A program made the translations under genes and the position numbers. This document shows positions 21,433 through 30,577 of a stretch of DNA of 30,938 nt, piece after piece. The notes under the pieces were generated by a model. The model did not search any database. It worked only from the letters and a program-made list of their open reading frames with translations, and was not told the origin of the DNA. The DNA lies in the IMG/VR virus record IMGVR_UViG_3300036770_002653, positions 1-30,938 of that record; one strand, 5' to 3'. The first letter of the stretch is position 1, and every line of letters starts with the position of its first letter. The stretch comes from a virus.

Positions 21433-21740
21433 GCCCTCACCCTCCAAACCACCGCCAACCTCCCTGACGCCGTCTTCCTCGTCCCATCCGCCACGACGAA
21501 CCCGCGCCTCGCAAGCTCGATCCGCCTGGGCCGCTGCGTGCTCGGGTTCATGCCCAGCCGCCGCTGCATCTCCTCATCGGTCAGCCCGCCAGGCGTCGCC
21601 TGGAGCAGCTCGAGCACGCGACGCTGCATCGCGTTGAGCGTGTCGCCGTCGAGCGAGTCAGCAGCCGCCGCCGAGGTGATCGAGCCGTTGACGCTCGGAG
21701 CTCGTGGGGCGAAGAGCGGGAGGTCTTCGAGGTCGGTCAT
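21429..21740 (-). CDS. Winged-helix DNA-binding protein
   Basis: A 103-residue protein whose C-terminal two-thirds is a winged helix: LNAMQRRVLELLQATPGGLTDEEMQRRLGMNPSTQRPRRIELARRGFVVADGTRKTASGRLAVVWRV. The pattern (helix, ...G-hT..E...rl......rR..L...G.v......R.t..G....W) is that of small phage regulators or DNA-binding adaptors that pair with methyltransferases. ATG 21740 overlaps the methyltransferase stop (ATGA). Confidence 0.78.
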   Translation of the reverse strand: MTDLEDLPLFAPRAPSVNGSITSAAAADSLDGDTLNAMQRRVLELLQATPGGLTDEEMQRRLGMNPSTQRPRRIELARRGFVVADGTRKTASGRLAVVWRVRA

Positions 21741-22723
21741 GCGAGAGCCTCCTGAGCGTCAAACAGCGTCACCTCGTGCTTCCGACCCTTGGCAGCCTCT
21801 TCGAGGTTCTTGACCGCCTGCCGGTAGTAAGCCGGCTTGAGCTCGACGCCGATCGCCTTGCGGCCGTTGAGCACCGCACCGTATGCCTCGCTGCCGACGC
21901 CCATGAACGGCGTCAGAACGGTCTCGCCGGGCAGGCTTCGTAGATGCACGATCCGCTCAATCACGTCGAGTTGCAGCGGGTGCATGTGCCGCTCGTCATC
22001 GTCTTCGCGGGCCTGCTTGTAAGGCAGCGTTCGCTCCAGACGGATGTCGTCCCAGAAAGCCGATGCGTACTGCCGCCAGATCCAGTGCGAGTAGCGGTTC
22101 TCAATCTGCTTGCCCTTGTGGCCGCGATACGCGAGCAGTTCGGACGGAATCTCGCGCTCGCCCGCGTACTCCAGCAGCCCGGTCGGGTTCGCAACCGGAA
22201 CCGGGTTCTCTCCGTCCTTGCGGAAGAGCAGAAGGCAGTCAGCCGAGGCAACGTCGCACAGACTCGCATCGGTCACGACTTGCTTGTGGGCGAGCCCCTT
22301 CGCCATCGTGCGGTTCCGCACGCCGAGCGGCTCCTTCCAGATGAAGTGCCGGCACCAGAACCGCCAGCCGAGGGACTCGTGCAGCCGAATGATCTCGCCG
22401 GGAAAGTCGATGAGCCCGCCGGGCGATGTCTTCCTCGGGATGTCCATGCAGTGAACCGCCGACAGCCGCCCAGGCATCGTCACCCGGTGAATCTCTCCGA
22501 CCACGAACGCATAGTGGTCGAAGAACTCTTGATGACTGCGGCAGTTCGAGAGGTCACGCTCAGAACTGGAGTAGTGGTACAAGCAGCCAGCACCATCTGC
22601 TGCGAACGGCGGCGAGTAGACCGAGAGATGCACCGACTCGTCGGGGATGCTCTGGAGCACCTCGCAGCAGTCGCCGTTGTAGATCGCGTAATCGTCTGTG
22701 ATTACTTGCTCGCTGACAGCCAT
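21737..22723 (-). CDS. DNA methyltransferase (amino-type, beta-like)
   Basis: A 328-residue DNA N6-adenine or N4-cytosine methyltransferase. Motif IV is SPPF (residues 37-40), followed by a target-recognition stretch, WIWRQYASAFWDDIRLERTLPYKQA, and motif I is the late TPFMGVGSEAYGAV with GVELKPAYYRQA. The order IV...I is that of the beta class; the SPP(F) version of DPPY is common in N4-C enzymes. It overlaps the helicase gene stop by 22 bases, with a weak AAAGGA. The absence of a partner nuclease suggests self-protection of phage DNA. The base modified is not determined. Confidence 0.88.
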   Translation of the reverse strand: MAVSEQVITDDYAIYNGDCCEVLQSIPDESVHLSVYSPPFAADGAGCLYHYSSSERDLSNCRSHQEFFDHYAFVVGEIHRVTMPGRLSAVHCMDIPRKTSPGGLIDFPGEIIRLHESLGWRFWCRHFIWKEPLGVRNRTMAKGLAHKQVVTDASLCDVASADCLLLFRKDGENPVPVANPTGLLEYAGEREIPSELLAYRGHKGKQIENRYSHWIWRQYASAFWDDIRLERTLPYKQAREDDDERHMHPLQLDVIERIVHLRSLPGETVLTPFMGVGSEAYGAVLNGRKAIGVELKPAYYRQAVKNLEEAAKGRKHEVTLFDAQEALA

Positions 22724-27743: not shown

Positions 27744-27850
27744 GCCGCCCGCCCCGCCTTGCCCGAAGCCCCGAAACCCACCTAAGTTTCAAGTCCTACG
27801 GGCGATCCTTTTAGCGGAGGGCATGGTAGACAGAGGTTCCGGTGGTCGCC

Positions 27851-27877
27851 CGTATACTAGTCCCATCTAGATACGGA
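27851..27877 (+). promoter_or_regulatory. Integrase promoter -10 and operator palindrome
   Basis: TATACT at 27853-27858 is a good -10 for the integrase; no clear -35 at the right distance. An imperfect palindrome CCGTATACTAG (27850-27860) and CTAGATACGG (27867-27876) overlaps it. Half-sites read CTAGTATACGG in the other direction and so nearly equal the half-site at 30578. GGAGG (27875-27879) is part of the same block, so a repressor here would also cover the ribosome site. Confidence 0.5.
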
Positions 27878-27886
27878 GGCGTGGCG

Positions 27887-29035
27887 ATGACTCTGCGTGA
27901 TCTACTCTCGGTGTACTCGACTCGGCATGGGCTCAAGGACCGCACGACGGCCCTTCTGTCCTCTACGCTCGACCGGTTCGATTCGTTCCTCGGGCGACCG
28001 GCGACGCTCGATGACCTCGACGACATGACGCTCGCGCGGTTCGCCAAGTGGCGAGCCGAGGATCGTCACTGGCGAAACAAGCCGCCGCGACCGGCGACCG
28101 TCAAGAAGGACATCGCCCACCTGTCGGCGCTCTGGACGCACGCGGCGAAGAAGCGGCTCACGCGGTCCGACGGCGTGCTGATTGAGCACCCAGACCTCCC
28201 GCGAGGGTTGGTCAAGGTCAGCCTGCGACCGCCGAAGGGTTACCGCCTTGAGGAGATCGACGCCCTGGTCAAAGCCGCCAGACGCCGCCGGGGCGATGTC
28301 GGGCCGGTCCCGGCGTGGTGGTTTTGGACGACGATTCTTCAAGCGGCGTGGCAGACAGCCGAGCGGATCGGCGGGCTACTCGCCCTACGCTGGCGAGACG
28401 TTGATCTCGACGCCCGGCGGATCACGTATGACGGCAGCGGCAGAAAGGGCGGCGTGAAGACAATCGTGCGGTCGATCACTCCCGAGCTCGCCCGCCTGCT
28501 CGGCAAGCACAGAAGGGGCGACGACGATCTTGTCTGGCCGTGGCTTGAGCACCGCGTACCGGCATCGCTGTGGATCTCGCTGCGGCTCCTCGGCCAGACG
28601 GCGGGCGTCGCCGTCCACGGCTTCCATCCGATCCGCAAGGCGGCGGGCTCCTACGTCGCGGCGGCTGGCGGGGACGCCACCGAGTACCTCTCCCACTCGG
28701 ACCCGTCCACGACGCGGCAGCACTACCTTGACGCCGGGATCGTCGGGGGAGCCGACCCGCTCGACCTCCTCCCCAAGCTCCCCAGCGAGCGACGTGCGTC
28801 CCGCCCAGCCCCGCTCCCAGCCCCGGAGCCGACCACGCCTGCACGGGCGTCCAGCGGCCCCGTAGAGGCTGGTGCGGCGGTCGGCCGGTCGATGGCAGCC
28901 CGAGGGCTCGCCTGCCCGCCACGGGCTCAGCACGACGCCCTGGCGGCGGCTGCGGGCATCGAGCCAGAGGACGTGGCGGCGTTTAGCCGTGGGCTGCTCG
29001 ACGGGTGGATCAGCGGGCAGGGTGATGCCGCGTAG
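27887..29035 (+). CDS. int: Tyrosine-type integrase
   Basis: A 382-residue tyrosine recombinase for phage insertion. N-terminal arm/SAM-like domain about 1-110 (TLRDLLSVYSTRHGLKDRT...PATVKKDIAHLSALW). Catalytic residues, counted from ATG 27887: Arg160 in TAERIGGLLALRWRDVDL, Lys187 in GRKGG, His247/Arg250 in FHPIRKAAGSY, His270 in LSHSDPSTTRQ, and nucleophile Tyr280 in QHYLDAG. The last 70 residues are Pro/Ala-rich followed by AGIEPEDVAAFSRGLLDGWI, an unusual tail. ATG 27887 has GGAGG seven bases upstream; 15 further upstream residues are possible but overlap the promoter. It is the only plus-strand gene, and converges with the HTH gene at 29037 with one base between stops. Confidence 0.93.
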   Translation: MTLRDLLSVYSTRHGLKDRTTALLSSTLDRFDSFLGRPATLDDLDDMTLARFAKWRAEDRHWRNKPPRPATVKKDIAHLSALWTHAAKKRLTRSDGVLIEHPDLPRGLVKVSLRPPKGYRLEEIDALVKAARRRRGDVGPVPAWWFWTTILQAAWQTAERIGGLLALRWRDVDLDARRITYDGSGRKGGVKTIVRSITPELARLLGKHRRGDDDLVWPWLEHRVPASLWISLRLLGQTAGVAVHGFHPIRKAAGSYVAAAGGDATEYLSHSDPSTTRQHYLDAGIVGGADPLDLLPKLPSERRASRPAPLPAPEPTTPARASSGPVEAGAAVGRSMAARGLACPPRAQHDALAAAAGIEPEDVAAFSRGLLDGWISGQGDAA

Positions 29036-29036
29036 G

Positions 29037-29276
29037 TCACCGCTTCCGCCGCTTCGCCGCTTTCTTCGCCGGGCGAGCCGCTCGCGGTCTGCCCTCGGTC
29101 TCGCTCCGCACGTAGGCGGCGGCGCTCGCCCGGCTCACGATGTAGTTCCGCCCGACCTGTAGCCCGACAACGCGACCGTTCTGCACGAGCGTCCGCATCC
29201 AGCGGTCGGTCACGTCAGCAAGGCGGGCGGCTTCGGGGAGGGAGATCCAATCGGTGTTCGGTTCCGTTGGCTTCAC
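29037..29276 (-). CDS. HTH protein with basic tail, converging on integrase
   Basis: A 79-residue protein: an HTH, ISLPEAARLADVTDRWMRTLVQNGRVVGLQVGRNYIVSRASAAAYV, of MerR/excisionase-type, then GRPRAARPAKKAAKRRKR, a basic tail. GTG 29276 overlaps the methyltransferase stop (GTGA), so it belongs to that operon. Plan and tail are like those of the protein at 27431. It may be Xis, a DNA-bending partner or a Cro-like regulator. Confidence 0.75.
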   Translation of the reverse strand: MKPTEPNTDWISLPEAARLADVTDRWMRTLVQNGRVVGLQVGRNYIVSRASAAAYVRSETEGRPRAARPAKKAAKRRKR

Positions 29277-30310
29277 GACGCAACGCTCTCAAACTCAAGG
29301 ATCGCACGACCGATCACTTCGGCGACCTGCGGGACGACGGCGTTTCCGAGGCACCTAAGTCGGTCCACCCGATCGGGAACCCCATGAGCCACTCGACCCA
29401 CTGCGGGTTCAGCCTGCCACCATCCTCTGGTGGTTTCGGGTATGTCTTGTTCTTGGTCTCCCCTCTTTCCACCGCGTGGTCTAGGCAGTCCCTCGCTGGC
29501 GTAGTCCAGCACGGCCCTTTGTGGTCCCTCGCCGTCGGAGTCGGCCACATAATCCGTGGCTTGTATGGGTCTTCCTCCCATTCTTCTATCGGCGGACAAC
29601 TGCAATCGTGTACGTGCATGTTGTGAATCGTGCAGAGGAAGGTATCGCAGCACGGGCATTTTATCCACGCTGGAGCCTGCATCGACCTCATCCTGACAGC
29701 GACCCCCAACGACGGGCCGGGCTTGCCCTTTGTCTTTCCGTCTCTGTGATCCAGAACACGTGCGAGATACGCCTCGACCGGCTCGTCGTGATTCCCACGC
29801 AGAGCATGAAACACTGTCGGCGTGGGCCACAAGCCAGACGCGATCCCTTTGGTGTGGAGCACCAAGGTCGGCAGCGGCAATAACGTCCCATTCGCATACA
29901 TACCCGACCGAGGCAAACGCCCGCAAGATTCCGTGGAACGTGCGGCCTCCGTCATGGCTGAGAAGGCCGATGGGATTTTCCGCCACAAAGAACCTTGGGC
30001 AGAGATCCGCAACAACTCGGAGGGCTTCTCCCCACATCCATCGCTCATCGTTCGCGCCTTTCTGCTTTCCAGCGTGGCTCACCGGCTGGCACGGTACGCC
30101 AGCGCAGATGAGGTCAACCTGCCACTCCGAAGGATCGCCGACCGGAAACGTACGCACGTCTCCCCATCGAGTGACGCTGGGCCATTGCCTTGCCAGCACG
30201 CTACTGGCATAGGCATCGATCTCGACCTGCCACGCGCACTTCATCCCGGCTCGCTCGAAGCCGAGGTCGAATCCACCTATGCCAGCGAACAGTGAGCCAA
30301 AGGTCAGCAT
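29273..30310 (-). CDS. dcm: C5 cytosine DNA methyltransferase
   Basis: A 345-residue C5-cytosine methyltransferase. Motif I FAGIGGFDLGFE (residues 8-19), motif IV GVPCQPVSHAG with nucleophile Cys74, motif VI VAENPIGLL with Glu111, motif VIII QRDRVWLVAHADS (154-166), and motif X GNAVVPQVAEVI near the end. The middle (about 165-290) should be the target-recognition part and is Arg/Gln/Asp-rich. The ATG at 30310 makes TGATG with the upstream stop. A 735-base second frame lies inside its coding strand (see the next feature). It may protect phage DNA or mark integration state; no paired restriction enzyme is visible. Confidence 0.92.
   Translation of the reverse strand: MLTFGSLFAGIGGFDLGFERAGMKCAWQVEIDAYASSVLARQWPSVTRWGDVRTFPVGDPSEWQVDLICAGVPCQPVSHAGKQKGANDERWMWGEALRVVADLCPRFFVAENPIGLLSHDGGRTFHGILRAFASVGYVCEWDVIAAADLGAPHQRDRVWLVAHADSVSCSAWESRRAGRGVSRTCSGSQRRKDKGQARPVVGGRCQDEVDAGSSVDKMPVLRYLPLHDSQHARTRLQLSADRRMGGRPIQATDYVADSDGEGPQRAVLDYASEGLPRPRGGKRGDQEQDIPETTRGWWQAEPAVGRVAHGVPDRVDRLRCLGNAVVPQVAEVIGRAILEFESVAS
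29314..30048 (-). CDS. Overprinted ORF inside the C5 methyltransferase gene
   Basis: A 244-residue frame lies entirely within the methyltransferase gene, same strand, different register. Its sequence does not look like a random shadow: MSDGCGEKPSELL, a SGMYANGTLLPLPTLVL block, twin WPTPT boxes (near 104 and 163), CPCC, and GGRLNPQWVEWLMGFPIGWTDLGASETPSS at the end. From memory, similar 'WPTPT...LNP.WVEWLMGFP.GWTDL' proteins are encoded beside or over phage C5 methyltransferases. GCAGAAAGG precedes the ATG. The motif-X region of the enzyme and the GWTDL end share the same DNA. Either a true dual-coding gene or a constrained shadow; the sequence alone cannot settle it. Confidence 0.45.
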   Translation of the reverse strand: MSDGCGEKPSELLRISAQGSLWRKIPSAFSAMTEAARSTESCGRLPRSGMYANGTLLPLPTLVLHTKGIASGLWPTPTVFHALRGNHDEPVEAYLARVLDHRDGKTKGKPGPSLGVAVRMRSMQAPAWIKCPCCDTFLCTIHNMHVHDCSCPPIEEWEEDPYKPRIMWPTPTARDHKGPCWTTPARDCLDHAVERGETKNKTYPKPPEDGGRLNPQWVEWLMGFPIGWTDLGASETPSSRRSPK

Positions 30311-30534
30311 CAGAGAATCTCGCCCTCGTCGCTGCACTGCACGCCCGCCTTTCGTGCGAGCTCGATCGCGTCGTCATCGGTGACGTGAAACCGCCGCTTC
30401 GATCCACGCTGGCCGTAGGCGTCCGAAACGATGTAGTGCTTGCCACCTTGATACTGGATGCACCAAGCCTGCTGAACGCCGACAGTCGAGGCGAGGTGCT
30501 TGGCGTTGGTCAGGTTGTCGCTGGTCGTGGTCAT
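30310..30534 (-). CDS. Small hypothetical protein, first gene behind an operator
   Basis: A 74-residue protein: MTTTSDNLTNAKHLASTVGVQQAWCIQYQGGKHYIVSDAYGQRGSKRRFHVTDDDAIELARKAGVQCSDEGEIL. The ATG at 30534 follows an AAGGGA-like site; an upstream ATG at 30573 lies close to the predicted transcription start and is disfavoured. ATGA-like TGATG couples it to the methyltransferase. The short basic middle and acidic end fit a small regulator or inhibitor. No family. Confidence 0.65.
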   Translation of the reverse strand: MTTTSDNLTNAKHLASTVGVQQAWCIQYQGGKHYIVSDAYGQRGSKRRFHVTDDDAIELARKAGVQCSDEGEIL

Positions 30535-30577
30535 CGCTGCTTCCCTTTCGTTCGTGGTGTCGTGTCCCGTCATGCCC

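Follow-up and report, generated by a model that had tools for sequence, protein, structure and literature searches.

Does one stretch of viral DNA encode two proteins in the same direction, and if so, what does the second protein contribute to the first? The question is raised by a C5-cytosine methyltransferase gene in the virus record IMGVR_UViG_3300036770_002653, whose 30,938 nucleotides (30.9 kb) are the window analysed in this study. In canonical C5 methyltransferases, the recognition domain and motif IX are located between motifs VIII and X. A first-pass annotation of the window, made from the letters alone, proposed that the methyltransferase gene is overprinted by a second protein frame, and that such a dual-coding arrangement may be widespread.

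Results

Organization of the locus

The methyltransferase ORF occupies 29273-30337 on the minus strand. It is open as far as a GTG at 30337 (-); the methyltransferase chain, which we call alpha (29273-30310 (-)), probably starts at the ATG at 30310 rather than at this GTG. At TGATG (30308-30312 (-)), the likely alpha start overlaps the stop codon of an 87-aa ORF (30310-30573), an arrangement that suggests translational coupling. A second ORF at 29314-30048 (-) starts with ATG, encodes a protein of 244 aa, which we call beta, and lies wholly within the methyltransferase ORF in its +1 frame. The two same-direction ORFs of the first-pass annotation are thus present.

A tyrosine integrase ORF (+) and a small HTH/excisionase-like ORF (-) at 27842-29276 adjoin the methyltransferase as a lysogeny-type module. 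RecT, helicase, structural and tail-like ORFs lie away from the locus. A second methyltransferase may be encoded by the virus, since another ORF, at 21737-22723 (-), matches families of phage DNA methyltransferases (phrog_67, E 1.6e-35).

The catalytic chain

Alpha matches PF00145 with an E-value of 8.7e-50, and the match ends at residue 175. The hallmarks of C5 methyltransferases are all present on the minus strand: motif I for SAM binding (FGSLFAGIGGFD, 30266-30301), the catalytic motif IV with its PCQ (GVPCQP, 30083-30100), motif VI (ENP, 29972-29980), motif VIII of the QRxR type (QRDRVW, 29834-29851) and motif X with its GN (GNAVVPQ, 29327-29347). Motif X shares its DNA with the last beta codons, as had been noticed in the first pass. 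Motif IX, by contrast, is missing from the methyltransferase frame and present in beta, which the first pass had not noticed. With motifs I-VIII and X in place and IX missing, alpha departs from the canonical layout, in which the recognition domain (TRD) and motif IX belong to the single chain.

Homology between alphas and canonical enzymes ends at motif VIII. The AF2 model of alpha is folded at residues ~7-175 and 322-353, and the part in between is of low confidence, with pLDDT mostly <50. Comparison with M.HhaI aligned 211 residues at 2.0 Å (Z 27.1). Alpha has the large-domain fold of M.HhaI, and low confidence falls at the place where the small domain is expected.

Selection on the nested frame

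The second frame may be a shadow that owes its apparent conservation entirely to that of the enzyme, to shared codon usage or to some RNA element. When alpha of the window was reshuffled synonymously, the 254-codon stretch stayed open in only 3/100 cases. The corresponding stretch was open in 69/6500 reshuffles of 65 divergent relatives, and the beta score was lost in 65/65 of these genes. These results agree with the first-pass view that the second frame is more than a random shadow. However, the +2 frame inside the overlap is also more conserved than after synonymous shuffling, which is a point in favour of the shadow. Because this control exceeds the shuffles too, the shuffle tests alone overstate the signal, and the case therefore rests on omega and on codon-position patterns.

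In the omega test, substitutions were sorted by their effect in both frames, using pairwise counts and a simple transition weighting. The 55 independent gene pairs gave the +1 frame an omega of 0.76 (0.67-0.84) inside the overlap versus 1.05 (0.95-1.14) outside, whereas omega of the +2 control frame was 1.47 inside versus 1.42 outside. Purifying selection acts on the +1 but not on the +2 frame, and it is confined to the overlap; only there are beta-silent changes favoured over beta-altering ones. The first-pass annotation had named the absence of selection beyond that imposed by the enzyme as evidence against its proposal, and the opposite was found.

Codon positions gave the same picture. Differences between the window and its relative L001 at alpha codon positions 1/2/3 numbered 22/21/61 outside the overlap and 55/16/26 inside, so that wobble falls on beta position 3 within the overlap; among the closest relatives this shift is local to the overlap. 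Beta is also the more conserved protein in the closest relatives, with identities of 86/81/76% versus 74/71/67% for alpha (86% versus 74% between the window and L001). The shadow explanation is rejected by the frame-specific omega, and we give it practically no chance of being correct.

Zone anchors were found in 37 of the 55 pairs, and the zone values refer to these 37 pairs; the remaining 18 were left out, and the unzoned test on all 55 agrees. The alpha/beta omegas were 0.36/1.07 upstream of beta, 0.39/0.75 from the beta start to motif VIII, 0.93/0.72 from motif VIII to EPxVGRV, 0.45/0.48 from EPxVGRV on, where the IX/X end is constrained in both frames, and 0.37/1.16 downstream of beta. 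In the middle zone, therefore, constraint lies on the beta frame, and the alpha frame is almost free of it. This alpha spacer (29420-29812 (-), alpha omega 0.93 (0.85-1.01)) evolves almost neutrally in the alpha frame and is predicted to be disordered.

A selected frame could still be reached by programmed ribosomal frameshifting, which would fuse the alpha N-terminus to beta and leave beta with no start of its own. The constant +1 relation of beta to alpha would fit such a mechanism, and so would the absence, in many cases, of a stop ahead of the conserved part of the frame. Frameshifting is nevertheless disfavoured because beta overlaps motifs VI-VIII, and motifs VI and VIII would be missing from the fusion. 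The beta frame of the window is, moreover, closed by a stop codon 10 codons ahead of the beta ATG. Upstream of this ATG, the window has only a weak signal (AAAGG), but some betas have strong ones, such as TAAAGGAG ahead of ATG, and the best start plus Shine-Dalgarno scores of betas exceeded those of synonymous shuffles (p 9e-11, calculated over non-independent genes). Separate beta starts were also placed by the annotators of K1ind2, K1G and Lily. Taken together, a frameshift product is very improbable, and a start within alpha is the preferred reading.

Distribution of the alpha/beta pair

The beta search found 342 relatives in viral contigs. There are also 208 in phage records and 348 in genome contigs, the latter from many bacterial phyla and one archaeon. 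These numbers show the arrangement to be widespread, which the first-pass annotation had thought possible. At 179/181 loci the beta ORF lies in the +1 frame of alpha, and the other 2 have split or extra alpha ORFs. A beta fused to alpha in one ORF, or standing alone, was not found among the 181 loci. Because these loci were mostly picked by the beta search, relatives were additionally sampled by alpha, with beta unused in the selection. Beta was present in 79/80 of them; methyltransferase homologues lacking the second frame, which the first-pass annotation had named as the other finding that would count against it, are therefore nearly absent. The lone relative without a real beta, L277, reads a motif IX, LTPLECERLMGWP, in the methyltransferase frame itself.

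In some records beta is already annotated as a nested CDS: 'g62 internal gene' in Lily, 'Mte8-like' in K1ind2 and 'DNA methyltransferase' in K1G. In N15 and most other records the nested CDS is not annotated. The open-licence literature on the nested family yielded nothing beyond the precedent of M.EcoHK31I and M.AquI. At L062 and L065, alpha/beta methyltransferase genes stand in tandem, two of them side by side in one contig.

Motif IX and modules of beta

Beta matches PHROG 1008, a family labelled 'DNA methyltransferase' (E 2.2e-19), and has no match in Pfam or NCBIfam. The boxes noticed in the first pass are in place: WPTPT at residues 74 and 168, CPCC at 131-134 and LNPQWVEWLMGFPIGWTDL at 213-231. 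Modelled alone by AF2, beta gave a poor model (mean pLDDT 57.9), and neither profile nor fold comparison matched it to a solved structure.

Motif IX of beta is located at 29356-29415 (-) (RLNPQWVEWLMGFPIGWTDL; short form LNPQWVEWLMGFP). A profile of canonical motif IX was derived from methyltransferases without this beta, mostly hosts of the second nested family described below, and it ranked the LNPxWVEWLMGFP site top in 61/61 betas. The window beta scored 24 bits, versus 5.2 for the 99th percentile of shuffled betas, and the median best score on alpha C-terminal halves was -6.9. When beta was compared with canonical methyltransferases by hhalign, exactly motif IX was aligned, weakly (E 0.1), and the N-terminal half of beta found no counterpart among them. 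In 15 bacterial genomes, methyltransferases had either beta without an in-frame motif IX or, mostly, motif IX without beta.

The remainder of beta is modular. Betas contain one to six WPTPTA-type boxes, often followed by LxxAV. Module 1 (WPTPTVFHALRGNHDEPV...SLGVAV, 29695-29829 (-)) has the form WPTPTxxHAxRGNHDEPV...SLGVAV and is common to the betas of the window, L010, L011, L013 and L103, which include an archaeal contig. The alphas of these betas are distant, only ~27-30% identical. Such sharing is expected if recognition modules are exchangeable, and at the level of sequence it suggests module exchange. Module 2 (WPTPTARDHKGPCWTTPARDCLDHAVERGE, 29464-29547 (-)) is the most conserved module of the family in the alignment.

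A Cys/His-rich insert of the form CPCC...C..H..H.H.C.C, also CPCC...CTIH..H.HDC.C, lies at 29554-29688 (-). It is clade-specific. The CPCC pair of the first-pass annotation is present in the window beta, but we reject it as a conserved hallmark of the family, since the insert is found in only 4/183 relatives (the window and L001-L003). The insert had no match in the phage collection; it is a possible zinc-binding insertion.

A second nested family

Starting from the exceptional relative L277, a further nested ORF in the +1 frame was found, on C5 methyltransferases that have motif IX in frame. In phage P1, this class 2 ORF lies within dmt (L292:1668-2156 (+), AF234172), where it is not annotated; it was also found in L277, L293, L294, L295 and L296-L375. 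Its consensus is ...GSIPqRyFLSskACAGILRRAEkRGKxLPP.... The hosts include P1 Dmt and the methyltransferases of Vibrio, Caulobacter and Ruminococcus phages, and a scan gave at least 598 relatives. The nested ORF was in the +1 frame in 86/86 pairs examined, and motif IX was recognisable in frame in 66/86 of the methyltransferases. Omega of the nested frame was 0.55 (0.49-0.61) inside the overlap versus 1.11 outside, so that this frame is selected even more strongly than beta.

Discussion

The product of the locus is very probably a C5-cytosine methyltransferase made of two polypeptides, as in M.EcoHK31I, to which it is likened by architecture rather than by demonstrated homology. Alpha would bind SAM and carry out catalysis through motifs I, IV, VI, VIII and X, and has neither motif IX nor a foldable recognition domain. 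Beta, which contains motif IX together with the modular WPTPTA...LxxAV repeats, would be translated from its own start within alpha in the +1 frame. These repeats are probably the DNA-recognition part. The nearly neutral alpha spacer, predicted to be disordered and set beside the modular and selected beta, suggests that the TRD is placed in beta. Beta most likely docks on alpha, and the complex would then have a full DNA-binding cleft, with the target sequence determined by beta. On the DNA, motif VIII, recognition region, motif IX and motif X follow one another as in canonical enzymes, with the putative recognition region and motif IX read in the other frame. As a putative orphan enzyme of a phage or prophage region, the methyltransferase most likely protects phage DNA, by marking it, from restriction in the host.

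Beta is best read as the missing subunit because it carries the motif IX that is absent from the enzyme. It may instead be a real phage protein with a role of its own, such as anti-restriction or regulation, which happened to become overprinted on the enzyme gene. We keep this explanation mainly because the second nested family shows +1 overprinting beyond a missing motif IX: class 2 ORFs sit on complete-motif methyltransferases, including P1 Dmt, and nesting therefore needs no missing motif IX. For the same reason, +1 nesting in general cannot be explained by the supply of motif IX. The beta N-terminal half, for which canonical methyltransferases offer no counterpart in hhalign, is also in keeping with an independent protein. 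However, motif IX occurs in beta exactly where alpha lacks one, with the canonical motif order kept on the DNA. At the loci found by the beta search, moreover, beta never occurs without alpha, and in the sample selected by alpha, almost no alpha of this type is without beta. The title of the 1995 paper by Lee, Kam and Shaw, cited in PMC3404938, states that two proteins are required for in vitro methylation by M.EcoHK31I. An independent role of beta is thus unlikely, and the two-polypeptide enzyme remains our preferred explanation.

Overprinting in the +1 frame is likely to be general among phage C5 methyltransferases and to comprise two or more classes. In class 1, beta would carry motif IX and swappable recognition modules, and specificity would evolve in the nested frame while the alpha frame drifts. 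In class 2, the nested family sits mostly on motif-IX enzymes such as P1 Dmt and is more strongly selected. If this is true, an accessory protein has been overlooked in phage P1, and class 2 makes this long-studied phage a direct test case.

If the two-polypeptide reading is correct, the 'DNA cytosine methyltransferases' that look broken or atypical in hundreds of phages and prophages are not lacking motif IX and the recognition domain, which sit in the other frame. Work that clones or annotates only the large ORF would then end with an enzyme that is inactive or misassigned, and it is beta that predictions of specificity should be based on. The alpha/beta set may also be a large natural resource on same-strand overlapping genes, in which recognition and catalysis evolve in separate frames.

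Several known systems can be compared with this locus. The catalytic domain of alpha is like that of M.HhaI and other one-chain C5 methyltransferases; unlike alpha, these enzymes have the recognition domain and motif IX within the single chain. Beta-type proteins are known as PHROG 1008, 'Mte8-like protein' and 'g62 internal gene', which appear as nested CDSs in some phage records under labels such as 'DNA methyltransferase' or 'hypothetical' that state no role. The small chain of M.EcoHK31I comes from an alternative reading frame within the gene of the large chain, as beta does within that of alpha. In M.EcoHK31I, which recognizes YGGCCR, the larger subunit has motifs I-VIII and X, and motif IX is on the smaller subunit (PMC3404938); the same division is found here. 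The predicted TRD of M.EcoHK31I was reported in the larger subunit (PMC3404938), whereas the recognition region of alpha is nearly neutral and predicted to be disordered, and it is beta that resembles a TRD. The setting also differs, since the present locus is in a virus record with phage genes. In M.AquI (CYCGRG), a split C5 methyltransferase, the smaller chain comprises the distal variable region and motifs IX and X (PMC3404938). As in M.AquI, the catalytic and putative recognition parts are on two chains; unlike in M.AquI, motif X remains in alpha, and the two genes overlap in different frames.
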